This document shows positions 1 to 48,121 of a stretch of 64,000 nt of DNA, one piece after another. Positions within the stretch are counted from its first letter, which is position 1, and every line of letters begins with the position of its first letter. Below the pieces are notes generated by a model. It saw only the letters and a program-made list of their open reading frames with translations. It searched no databases and had not been told where the DNA came from. A program made the position numbers and the translations under genes. The stretch is from Actinophytocola xinjiangensis (GTDB lineage Bacteria; Actinomycetota; Actinomycetes; Mycobacteriales; Pseudonocardiaceae). The DNA is taken from the NCBI RefSeq assembly GCF_001921215.1, contig NZ_MSIF01000021.1, forward strand, positions 1 through 64,000, given 5' to 3'.

Positions 1-624
1 CCGGTCGCCGTGCTCCCGCCGCCGCCGGCCGCCACGGCCACCGCCGCGCTGCCGACCGCCGCCGTCGCGTCACGGCCGGTGCCCGGCCCGAAGGCGGCCC
101 CGCAGCGCAACCTGATGATCGTCGCGGTGTCGGCCGTCGTGGTGCTGGCGGCGGCCGTGACCACGGTCCTGATGATCAACTCCTCCGGTGACGGGAACGA
201 CCGGCAGGCGGGTCCGCCGCCGTCCTCGGTGAGCTCGTCGGCGCAGCGGCCGGCGGAGTCCTCGGAGTCGCCGACGCCCACGCCGACGCCGATCCCGCCC
301 AGCGCGCCGATCGGCTGGAGCGAGGCCGGCCAGCTGGTGATCAACTACTACGGCACGTTCACCGACCCGGCGGCGCGCTGGGCGATGCTCTCCTCCAACG
401 CGCAGAACCTCTTCGGCAGCCGCGAGGCGTTCGACGAGTACTGGTCGACCTACACCAACGTCAGCTCCCGCAACGCCAACGGCGTCACCCCCAACGCCGA
501 CAACTCGCTGAACGTGCCGGTCGACGTCACCTTCACCAAGGGTGACGGCTCCCAGCAGATCAAGCGGCACGTGCGGGTCACCAGGGAGAACGGCAAGCTG
601 GTCATCGACTCGCTGGCGCAGTGA
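1..624 (+). CDS. C-terminal part of a membrane-anchored protein, possibly a Ser/Thr kinase tail (5' end outside window)
   Basis: The frame is open to the left window edge, so only the last ~207 residues are visible. They hold a Pro/Ala-rich stretch, one hydrophobic segment at about residues 38-59 (a membrane span), a Ser/Thr/Pro linker with a PTPTPTP run, and a ~100-residue C-terminal domain (NYYGTF, AARWAMLS) with an NTF2-like look that would lie outside the cytoplasm. Actinobacterial transmembrane Ser/Thr kinases often end this way, but no kinase domain is in the window, so that identity is inference. The 3' end overlaps the convergent acyl-CoA dehydrogenase gene by 23 bp. Confidence 0.6.
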   Translation, partial: PVAVLPPPPAATATAALPTAAVASRPVPGPKAAPQRNLMIVAVSAVVVLAAAVTTVLMINSSGDGNDRQAGPPPSSVSSSAQRPAESSESPTPTPTPIPPSAPIGWSEAGQLVINYYGTFTDPAARWAMLSSNAQNLFGSREAFDEYWSTYTNVSSRNANGVTPNADNSLNVPVDVTFTKGDGSQQIKRHVRVTRENGKLVIDSLAQ

Positions 625-1894
625 GCGCGTCGAGCACCCTGGCGCGGTGCCAGGACCGGGTGCCCCACGCCTCGCGCAGCGCCCGCACCGCGAGCAGCCG
701 CCGGGCCAGGTCGTACTCCTGGGTGTAGCCGAGCGCGCCGTGCACCTGCAGGGCCGTGCGGGCGGCGAGGTAGGCGGCGTCGGCGGCGGCCACCTTGGCG
801 GCCGAGACGTCGCGGGCGGCGAGGGTCCTGGCGGCCTCGAACACCAGCGGCCGGGCGAACTCCAGGGCCACCAGGACGTCGGCCAGCTGGTGTTTGACAG
901 CCTGGAACTCCCCGACCGGCCGGCCGAACTGCCGCCGCGCCCGGACGTGGGCGCAGGCCAGGTCGAGCATCCCGTGACCCAGCCCCAGCAGCCGCGCGGC
1001 GACACAGACCACGCCGAGACCGAACCCGTCACCGGCCGGCCCGAGCGCCTCCCCCGGTGTCAGCGCGAACAGCCGCCGCGCGGGATCGACGGACTCCGAC
1101 CGCTCCCCGACAAGTCCTGTGTAGACGGTCGAGCCGATGACCAGCAACGGCGTGGCGACGTCGGCGTCAGGCGCGAGGCCGGCATCCACAGCCCCCGGCC
1201 TTCCCGACGAGAACTGTCGGTGCCCGCCGCTAGACTGGAAAACGGGGGGATCCCCGCGGCCCGACCCGGGAAACTGTGGAATCGGTGCCATCGTCGGTCG
1301 TTCGCGGTTGTCCACAGGAGTCTTGTTCGTGGCCGGGAACTGTCGGCCCTGGTCGGTAGACTGGAAAACGGGGGGATCCCCGTGGCCTGGCCCCGGTAGA
1401 GCTCGGGAATCGGTGCCAGCCGCCAGCTGTTCGCCGTTGTCCACAGCCGCCCCGTCCAGGGCCGGGAACTGTCGGGGCCCGTCGGTAACGTGGTCACCGG
1501 GGGCCGGAGGCCACGGGGGCAGCACCGGCAGCGCCGGCAGGGCCACCGTCGCCAGCTCGCCGGCGACCAGCCGGGGCAGCAGCCCGGCTGCGACCGGCAG
1601 CGCGGCCACCACCGCCGGCACCACGGCGAAGGACTCCACCAGCGGGCCGGGCACGGCGTGGCGGCCCAGCGTCTCGAACACCACCGCCAGTTCGACCGCC
1701 CCGGCGCCCAGCCCGCCGAACCGCGTCGGCACGGCCAGTCCGCACGCGCCGAGGTCGGCCAGCCGGGCGAGGAGGGCCAGCCCGGCGGCGTGCTCGCCGG
1801 CGGCCCAGTCGCGGGTCAGGGCGGCGGTGTCGGTGTCGGACAACAGGTCGTGCAGGCTGGCCGCGAGTTGGCGGTGCTCGTCGGTGGGCGTCAT
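602..1894 (-). CDS. Acyl-CoA dehydrogenase, FadE32/FadE33 type, with an in-frame repeat insertion
   Basis: Encodes 430 residues. The N-terminal helical part (GLAVPTRFGGLGAG, residues ~50-65) and the C-terminal part (RRQFGRPVGEFQAVKHQLAD, then ALQVHGALGYTQEYDL) are typical of an acyl-CoA dehydrogenase subunit. Actinobacterial steroid dehydrogenases work as alpha2beta2 pairs; the partner here is the FadE31-like gene just upstream, whose stop overlaps this start (ATGA). FadE32/33 proteins are near 320 residues, so this one is about 100 too long; the excess, roughly residues 133-236, is a tandem repeat array with peptide motif GDPPVFQS, placed in the middle beta domain. Whether the product folds is unknown. 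FadE32 versus FadE33 cannot be decided by eye. Confidence 0.8.
   Translation of the reverse strand: MTPTDEHRQLAASLHDLLSDTDTAALTRDWAAGEHAAGLALLARLADLGACGLAVPTRFGGLGAGAVELAVVFETLGRHAVPGPLVESFAVVPAVVAALPVAAGLLPRLVAGELATVALPALPVLPPWPPAPGDHVTDGPRQFPALDGAAVDNGEQLAAGTDSRALPGPGHGDPPVFQSTDQGRQFPATNKTPVDNRERPTMAPIPQFPGSGRGDPPVFQSSGGHRQFSSGRPGAVDAGLAPDADVATPLLVIGSTVYTGLVGERSESVDPARRLFALTPGEALGPAGDGFGLGVVCVAARLLGLGHGMLDLACAHVRARRQFGRPVGEFQAVKHQLADVLVALEFARPLVFEAARTLAARDVSAAKVAAADAAYLAARTALQVHGALGYTQEYDLARRLLAVRALREAWGTRSWHRARVLDALTAPASR
1185..1492 (-). repeat. Tandem repeat array 1 (two full units and a partial), inside a fadE gene
   Basis: TCCACAG marks recur at 1185, 1311 and 1440, so the unit lengths are 126 and 129 bp, both divisible by three. 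GAACTGTCGG recurs at 1211, 1337 and 1466, and GACTGGAAAACGGGGGGATC twice. The third unit fades out after about 1492. Read on the minus strand, in the frame of the host gene, the units encode RQFPA..VDN..GDPPVFQS and contain no stop. TTGTCCACA occurs at 1308-1316 and 1437-1445. The same family, in the same sense as the minus strand here, forms a second array at 22011-22386. Confidence 0.9.
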
Positions 1895-9755: not shown

Positions 9756-10490
9756 TCACCGCTGCTCCAGGAACGCCGCCCTGGCCGCCCCGGCGGCACC
9801 GGTGAGGTTGAGCTCGTAGGTGAAGCCCTGCTCGTAGCGGTAGCTGCGGTGCACGTCCTGCGGATCGATGCCGTTGAGCGCCGCCTTGGCCGCGCGGATC
9901 ACCCTCGGGTCCTTGGCGGCGATCACCCCGGCCAGCGCCAGCGCCGCACCGTCCAGTTCGGACGCCTCGACGACCTGGTACACCGACCCGTGGTGGTGCA
10001 GCTGCGCGGCGGTGACCGTCGAGGCGGTGAGGTACAGCGCCCGCATCAGGTGCTGGGGCACCAGCCGGGCGAGGTGGGTGGCCGCGCCCAGCGCGCCCCG
10101 GTCGACCTCGGGCAGGCCGAAGGTGGCGTCGGTGGCGGCGAGCACGACGTCGGCGTTGCCGACCAGCCCGATCCCGCCGCCGAGGCAGAACCCGTGCACG
10201 GCGGCGACGACCGGGACCGCGCAGTCGTAGACCGCGCCGAAGGCCGCGTGGCAGCCGGTGTTCGCGCCGACGATGGCGTCCTCGCGCTGGATCTCCTTGA
10301 GGTCGACGCCCGCGCAGAACCCGCGCCCGGCCGCCCGCAGCACCACGACCCTGGTGTCGGGGTCGTGGCCGGCGGCGGTGACCGTGTCGGCCAGGTCGTA
10401 CCAGCCGCGCACCGGCACCGCGTTGACCGGCGGGAAGTCCAGGGTCACCACGACGATTCCCGGCCCGCCGGAGCCGCTCGACACACCCAT
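9756..10490 (-). CDS. echA20: EchA20, crotonase-family ring D hydrolase
   Basis: 244 residues, crotonase fold, with GRGFCAGVDLKEIQ and HGFCLGGGIGLVGNADVV as oxyanion-hole regions and PEVDRGALGAATHLARLVP around the active site. In M. tuberculosis EchA20 (Rv3550) opens ring D of a HIP-derived CoA thioester; it is next to ipdA and ipdB as here. It is the first gene of echA20-ipdA-ipdB-ipdC. A candidate operator lies 26 bp upstream of ATG 10490. Confidence 0.88.
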   Translation of the reverse strand: MGVSSGSGGPGIVVVTLDFPPVNAVPVRGWYDLADTVTAAGHDPDTRVVVLRAAGRGFCAGVDLKEIQREDAIVGANTGCHAAFGAVYDCAVPVVAAVHGFCLGGGIGLVGNADVVLAATDATFGLPEVDRGALGAATHLARLVPQHLMRALYLTASTVTAAQLHHHGSVYQVVEASELDGAALALAGVIAAKDPRVIRAAKAALNGIDPQDVHRSYRYEQGFTYELNLTGAAGAARAAFLEQR

Positions 10491-10494
10491 GCGA

Positions 10495-10520
10495 CCGCCT
10501 AACCTAGCCGCCTAACCTAG
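10495..10520. repeat. Two tandem copies of a 13-bp sequence upstream of echA20
   Basis: CCGCCTAACCTAG occurs at 10495-10507 and again at 10508-10520 without a base between. It lies in the short leader of echA20, and its second copy runs into the palindromic operator. Role unknown; it may be a duplication that moved the promoter relative to the operator. Confidence 0.8.
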
Positions 10521-10531
10521 CATTTGCTTGG
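10516..10531. promoter_or_regulatory. Candidate operator before echA20-ipdABC (second copy of the HIP palindrome)
   Basis: CCTAGCATTTGCTTGG is a near-palindrome (CCWAGCA / TGCTWGG). It shares 12 of 14 bases with the element at 3818-3834. Its place before a second HIP unit supports a shared repressor distinct from KstR. Confidence 0.55.
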
Positions 10532-21960: not shown

Positions 21961-22010
21961 ACAGCCCGCCCCACACCCGATACCAGCGGCCGCGGTCCTC
22001 TGATTTCCCC

Positions 22011-22386
22011 AGGTCAGGCCACGGGGATCCCCCCGTTTTCCAGCCTATCGCGCAGCACCGACAGTTCCTGGCCAGGAACAGGGCGGCTGTGGACAACCGC
22101 GAACAGCGCTGGCGCCCCGCGCCCGCCGTCCGTACCCGTCGGCGACCGCAGGCAGCCAGCACCGATTCCAGAGCTTGACCGGGGTCAGGCCACGGGGGAT
22201 CCCCCCGTTGTCCAGTCTACCGACCAGCACCGACAGTTCCCGGCGACGAACAAGCCCACTGTGGACAACGGCGAGCAACTGATTCCACAGTTTCCCTTGC
22301 CAGGCCACGGGGATCCCCCCGATTTCCAGTCTATCGCGCAGCGCCGACAGTTCTCGGTGGTGAGCGAAGGGGGTGTGGACAACTGA
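22011..22386 (+). repeat. Tandem repeat array 2 between convergent fadD and echA19
   Basis: The 435-bp gap between the two stops (21960 and 22396) is almost all repeat. GGGGATCCCC recurs at 22023, 22195 and 22309, and TGTGGACAA at 22088, 22260 and 22374, so the spacings are 172 and 114 bp, less regular than array 1. Each unit also has an ACCGACAGTTCC or GCCGACAGTTCT segment. TCCACAG at 22284-22290 pairs with CTGTGGA at 22259-22265. The plus strand here corresponds to the minus strand of array 1 and in one frame again spells GDPPVFQ and VDNRE. No gene is supported in it. Confidence 0.9.
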
Positions 22387-22395
22387 GGTGGCGGG

Positions 22396-47111: not shown

Positions 47112-48121
<1,010 letters not shown>

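Follow-up and report, generated by a model that had tools for sequence, protein, structure and literature searches.

A three-unit array of a small dispersed repeat lies in frame in an IpdE2/FadE33-like gene of Actinophytocola xinjiangensis

Only 1.2 kb from the end of a contig of Actinophytocola xinjiangensis, a gene for an acyl-CoA dehydrogenase subunit is interrupted by a repeat array that leaves its reading frame open, which raises the question of where this array came from and what became of the enzyme. We analyzed the gene within a window of 64,000 nucleotides (the whole stretch of DNA studied, positions 1 to 64,000 of contig NZ_MSIF01000021.1), together with the rest of the genome and genomes of related bacteria. 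The best reading, to which we assign a probability of roughly 0.8, is that a small block of a dispersed repeat landed in frame in the fadE33-like gene and is tolerated there as a passenger. The features of the locus are the following:

602..1894, minus strand: acyl-CoA dehydrogenase subunit gene, IpdE2/FadE33-like, 430 codons plus stop (open reading frame, Pfam and NCBIfam)
1891-2973: partner subunit gene, IpdE1/FadE32-like, adjoining the fadE-like gene
1169..1534, minus strand: inserted segment, residues 121-242, replacing 7 residues (PHTPFAL in congener G005; MAFFT alignment)
1181..1282, plus strand: repeat unit 1, with TGTCGGTG at 1215 and TAGACT at 1231
1303..1411, plus strand: repeat unit 2, with TTGTCCACA at 1308, TGTCGG at 1341 and TAGACT at 1357
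1433..1515, plus strand: repeat unit 3, a variant ending CGGGGGCCGGAGGCC (model match 1433-1505, right end by eye), with TTGTCCACA at 1437, TGTCGG at 1470 and TA at 1486

The 430-residue protein matched the N-terminal acyl-CoA dehydrogenase domain of Pfam at residues 4-83 and the C-terminal one at 293-423, and the part between was unmatched. Its best NCBIfam match was IpdE2, which we take to be FadE33, with a score of 91 bits that is far below the cut-off of 450. The partner subunit contains SEPEAGSD, presumably its FAD motif. For comparison we used the best 29 matches besides the gene itself from a search of 120 family genomes; these orthologues span 280-353 amino acids as extracted, with approximate starts (the first-pass annotation of this DNA put related subunits near 320 residues), and the partner gene was adjacent in all seven loci checked. 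In the MAFFT alignment, the interval of residues 121-242 holds 122 residues here and 5-7 in 29 of 29 orthologues, so no relative in the set has the same long protein. With respect to G005, where the interval takes 21 nt, the 366 nt found here amount to a gain of 345 bp, exactly 115 codons. An insert of about 100 residues at 1185..1492 had been proposed; the insert is real, its size and edges are those given above, and the proposed range clipped the third unit (about 1433-1515). The array is absent from the fadE site of the congeners G001, G003 and G005, and the insert is also absent from the three named-record loci examined among the seven found (Saccharopolyspora sp. HNM0983, a Pseudonocardiaceae MAG and Streptomyces lasiicapitis). 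Additionally, the PHxP(Y/F)A segment that is common among the orthologues is gone from the insert-bearing gene.

The insert consists of three units of about 105 bp, antisense to the host gene. The repeat spacings of 126 and 129 bp that had been noted were both recovered, a tandem-repeat scan giving a period of 129 with 2.2 copies, and the frame was indeed open across all 430 codons. When 22 copies from the same genome were aligned on the TA of TAGACT, they were conserved from about -52 to +53, with little conservation beyond; these copies had been selected by a 25-base core, hence core conservation is by construction, which does not hold for the parts upstream of it. The unit starts with TTGTCCACA, followed after a stretch of some 22 bases by AACTGTCGGTG and, eight bases further on, by TAGACTGGAAAACGGGGGGATCCCC with a short tail, and in many copies a G-rich hairpin lies downstream of the TA (about -10 kcal/mol versus -7 for shuffles, on either strand). 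Motifs were counted in the 105 units (54 from the own genome, 51 from relatives) that passed an anchoring filter, out of 111 distinct ones. With up to one mismatch allowed, 35 own and 32 relatives' units contain TTGTCCACA, which in 34 and 29 of them, respectively, lies 46-50 bases ahead of the TA. TGTCRG was found in 30 own and 33 relatives' units, always (63/63) 16 bases before the TA, the exact hexamer being missing in the other 42, and TANNNT in 54/54 own and 44/51 relatives' units, a count in which the anchoring itself rewards TA. Conservation of the unit is also partly ascertained, because the sequence model was trained on own copies chosen by the core. A subtype without TGTCGG made up seven of the 29 core-picked copies (L013, L018, L022, L024, L026, L028 and L029; L021 aligned alongside); their shared core is the search pattern, and TTGTCCACA is exact in five, replaced by TTATCCACA in L013 and absent from L026. 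The form ending CGGGGGCCGGAGGCC, as in unit 3, recurs among many congener copies.

A second array of the same repeat lies in an intergenic region of the window:

22284..22387, minus strand: array 2 unit C, intergenic, colinear with unit 1 (model match and array alignment)
22164..22272, minus strand: array 2 unit B, intergenic, colinear with unit 2 (111/129 identical)
21995..22101, minus strand: array 2 unit A, intergenic, colinear with unit 3 (model match and array alignment)

Units 1, 2 and 3 of the fadE array align with C, B and A in that order, with spacers common to both arrays. The closest pair is unit 2 and B (86% identity); unit 3 is 76% identical to both A and B, and the pairing rests on order and spacers, since unit 1 is nearer to B and A (80%) than to C (77%). 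Of the 308 bases that could be aligned, 61 differ between the arrays, therefore the copying of the block was not recent, and internal gaps of 12, 42 and 1 bases separate them, the last of which is due to an additional C in array 2 unit B. The motif GDPPVFQS, noticed before in the middle of the enzyme, does occur there twice, at residues 172 and 214; because GDPPVVQS can be read in one plus-strand frame of the intergenic array 2 (window 22195), it is a property of the repeat and not of the enzyme. No unit was found at E≤0.01 between the same gene pair in G001, which has a further small predicted gene there, G003 and G004, nor at the array 2 locus of G005, where a neighbour gene differs, so that the array 2 copies are lineage-specific with respect to the congeners compared. 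Since array 2 occupies the usual, intergenic place of the repeat, it or its ancestor may be regarded as the donor of the fadE block. The gap between the array 2 flanking genes in G004 (L207, after 3039) carries a different short repeat, of the GACTCGCGGG type. A plasmid or phage origin was rejected after blastn of array 2 gave no match in a plasmid collection or a phage collection.

The repeat is dispersed over the whole genome. The 25-mer core with up to three mismatches was found at 29 places, versus none for the reversed control, and at E≤0.1 the sequence model matched 76 times, with 150 of the 13825 candidates scored, in keeping with the many dispersed copies of noncoding MITE-like repeats of 100-200 bp (RPE, ERIC, Correia). 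Of the 80 genomes sampled from the family, 20 had matches at E≤0.001, and these came from 14 of the 46 genera, own included (47 candidates scored per genome). In a class sample with stricter filters (32 candidates scored per genome among the rows listed), two of 118 matched at E≤1e-4, one of them the own genome; absences in both samples are soft because few candidates were scored per genome and the class filters were stricter. An exact 41-base pattern had no match in a broad contig collection, which may omit records near the A. xinjiangensis genome. Placed by a purpose-written codon-usage gene finder, the 56 distinct own units lie between convergent (34), tandem (15) and divergent (1) genes, within genes (5, three of which form the fadE array) and at a contig edge (1).

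Regarding how the unit spreads, end-to-end matching in 20 copies (mean 4.65 versus 4.46, sd 1.05, in shuffles) revealed no terminal inverted repeats, and inspection by eye of the fadE breakpoints against G005, where seven codons were lost, showed no target-site duplication; we therefore speak of copying of the block without implying transposition. A composite transposon between pairs of units was rejected, as no transposase was among the ten proteins scanned there (eight between inverted pairs and two between units of the same orientation), nine of which have metabolic or regulatory domains and one no domain. An origin from DUF222/13E12 elements was also discarded: the own genome has no DUF222, and in 25 DUF222 loci of relatives the profile found no unit and a regular expression two stray motif hits.

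The placement between convergent genes raises an alternative, that the unit is a host-selected 3'-end element (a terminator or transcription barrier) and not a mobile repeat. Convergent gaps hold 34 of the 50 intergenic units, as compared to 11 of 59 gaps of at least 60 bases in loci of relatives that had been retrieved on account of other genes. The p value of this bias (3.6e-13) is a guide only, its 20% baseline coming from the intergenic bases of the window, array 2 included, and its assumption of independent units being weak, as some units form arrays. The G-rich hairpin, which folds better than shuffles, also fits such a function, as do two terminator-like sites predicted in array 2 (0.4 expected); however, both predicted sites overlap the TTGTCCACA portion of unit B and not the hairpin, an equal bias would arise if a mobile repeat were tolerated only at a distance from promoters, and the array 2 copies are lineage-specific. 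We thus regard a 3'-end element as somewhat unlikely.

The motif layout of the unit suggests a promoter ancestry. The RecA-NDp layout was reportedly given by Gamulin in 2004 as TGTCRGTG-N8-TANNNT. The spacing from TGTCRG to TA in the unit fits TGTCRGTG, eight free bases and TANNNT, in part of the copies only; the known promoters differ in preceding repair genes, while the units lie mostly between convergent genes. In the A. xinjiangensis genome, TTGTCRGTGN8TANNNT occurs at seven places (none for the reversed control), one of which (L199) is inside a weak copy of the repeat. The other six are in gaps upstream of genes, of which one is uvrA-like, one is for DNA-alkylation repair, one belongs to the glutamate-cysteine-ligase family, one heads a run in which an HD domain is encoded by the second gene, one has a SWIM domain (on the other side lies a LigD-polymerase gene), and one is a further gene. 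The genome also has a PafBC-like pair, two adjacent WYL genes near tatA, the second of which encodes a PafC HTH domain. RecA-NDp is described as the PafBC target, extending to other Actinobacteria, in two papers (PMC6789036, PMC8223512), and a case in Streptomyces coelicolor is visible in a primer (PMC5087735). In addition, PMC4285127 gives TTGTCCACA as the DnaA box of high affinity in both M. tuberculosis and S. coelicolor. Most likely, then, the unit would be related to RecA-NDp (PafBC-type) promoters and have spread out from them, a DnaA-type box preceding it and a hairpin following. A further, rather doubtful idea suggested by these motifs is that the units are damage-promoter cassettes (DnaA box, PafBC -26/-10 boxes and a start-site hairpin), dozens per genome in this family between convergent genes, which would spread as arrays and add peptides in frame; if so, damage would set off antisense or colliding transcription from them at the ends of genes chromosome-wide, and they could titrate DnaA.

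The fadE gene is not the only host. In a non-random sample of loci, 14 of the 111 distinct units lie within 11 predicted genes of seven genomes, and in seven of these 11 the unit is read antisense, as in fadE. In-frame units were found in the N-terminal tail of ScpB, in the C-terminal tail of HemA, between KS and AT in two polyketide synthase modules of G055 (L143 and L160), between the LPG-synthase and lyase domains of another protein, and in or beside the condensation domain of an NRPS protein; weaker cases are a truncated AMP-binding gene (L111), a gene with no domain (L133) and one with an uncertain start (L146). In an APH-fold phosphotransferase gene of G049, relatives' homologues match before residue 131 and after residue 240; among the matches listed (21 genomes), none spans residues 131-240 save the gene itself and one hit in G253, which covers 22-277 and holds a stop. 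This insert comprises one unit and other low-complexity sequence, the unit thus lying within a larger insert. In-frame copies absent from relatives were seen for the fadE gene and the G049 gene. Furthermore, the first-pass annotation considered a non-coding repeat with a frame free of stops on one strand unusual, which it is not for this repeat: among 19 own copies of at least 95 bp (two of them in the fadE gene), 14 are free of stops in each antisense frame and 7 to 10 in each sense frame, and all three antisense frames are open together in 8 of 19, versus 4.4% of mononucleotide shuffles.

All these data suggest a course of events in which a three-unit block of a dispersed intergenic repeat, of common origin with the present array at 21995-22387, would have been copied into the ipdE2/fadE33-like gene in the A. 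xinjiangensis lineage. The block would have entered antisense to the unit with a length change that is a multiple of three, leaving the frame open and both conserved domains in place. The insertion point falls early in the middle domain, where FAD-binding relatives have the FAD motif and the IpdE2/FadE33-like family does not; in an alignment to the acyl-CoA dehydrogenase 1ukw it is opposite a stretch ending SEP, the start of that motif. The enzyme probably tolerates the insert because this is a place that IpdE2/FadE33-like subunits do without, and the added peptide would be a passenger. Tolerance is the option of the first-pass annotation that fits best, and its view of a dispersed repeat inserted in frame also stands. 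Differences between the arrays are not concentrated at third codon positions (22/102, 26/103 and 13/103 at positions 1, 2 and 3), therefore the added peptide shows no sign of conservation. AlphaFold on four sequences gave a mean pLDDT of 38.5, too poor for use on the structure of the insert.

The gene could also be a decaying pseudogene, in which the insert destroyed the enzyme and the frame is open by luck. The loss of the PHxP(Y/F)A segment, the lack of peptide-level constraint on the insert and the stop-poor antisense frames, which make an open frame cheap, would all suit this. Outside the insert, G000 (A. xinjiangensis) moreover falls 1.6 to 5.1 points behind G005 in similarity to all six other genomes compared, and its partner subunit is 5.8 to 9.7 points less similar to them than that of G005, from which a mild relaxation of the gene may be possible. 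Against this, the 430 codons hold no stop despite the 61 differences between the arrays, the single-base gap lies in array 2, and G000 and G003 are equidistant from G005 outside the insert (69.7% each), so we consider a pseudogene unlikely. For the partner subunit (1891-2973), identity to G005 is 73.7% in G000 and 80.4% in G003. It is very improbable that the insert was recruited and alters the enzyme: the frame remained open during array divergence, but the codon positions lack protein-level constraint and Pfam finds no domain within the insert. Lastly, the idea that an intein or a self-splicing RNA takes the segment out, which had also been raised, has nothing beyond the interruption of the gene in its favour and is hardly credible, as Rfam gave one chance-level hit (E 0.62), with no intron-type match and no family above chance, the RNA folds no better than shuffles (z 0.23, -0.23, -0.37 and 0.76), which together discard a structured RNA, Pfam at E≤0.001 finds acyl-CoA dehydrogenase domains only, so that the insert has no match to an intein or to a domain for splicing or homing, and the same repeat is intergenic elsewhere.

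The tolerance of the array as an in-frame passenger is best read by analogy with the Rickettsia palindromic elements (RPE) and the ERIC elements. RPE are noncoding, about 100-150 bp long, and lie both intergenically and in frame in genes, as outlined in PMC2229807 and PMC10969869; they are palindromic with terminal inverted repeats, which the A. xinjiangensis unit does not have, and the latter forms tandem arrays and bears promoter-like and DnaA-box-like motifs. In Rickettsia, a guanylate kinase that carries an RPE insert is described as active with changed substrate affinity (PMC2229807). The ERIC/RU-1, RU-2 and RU-3 repeats of enterobacteria, of 127, 168 and 103 bp, are likewise intergenic, with open frames, and also inside genes according to PMC2759123; compared by description, they differ in their hosts and in the terminal inverted repeats of RU-1 and RU-3. 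Correia/NEMIS of Neisseria are small dispersed promoter-carrying repeats with a 107-bp form also in frame in genes; however, their promoters are sigma-70-like and they end in 24-bp terminal inverted repeats, whereas the unit has a RecA-NDp-type layout and no such ends. A literature search of titles and abstract openings, mostly outside subscription journals, found no description of the repeat, and neither actinobacteria nor Streptomyces or mycobacteria are mentioned in the main text of PMC10969869. The landing of small repeats in frame within genes, which the reviews consulted describe for Rickettsia, enterobacteria and Neisseria, is now seen in the actinobacterial family Pseudonocardiaceae, with an array in a metabolic enzyme and units in polyketide synthases and elsewhere. 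Because the unit resembles a DNA-damage promoter, it could also illustrate a route from regulatory sequence to repeat DNA and on to coding sequence.

The window holds two further short repeats. At 10495-10521, a 13-bp tandem repeat (CCGCCTAACCTAG, 2.1 copies, 100% match) sits in the gap before a minus-strand gene starting at 10490 and is possibly an operator, and at 47307-47346 there is a perfect GTCGGC hexamer repeat of 6.7 copies.
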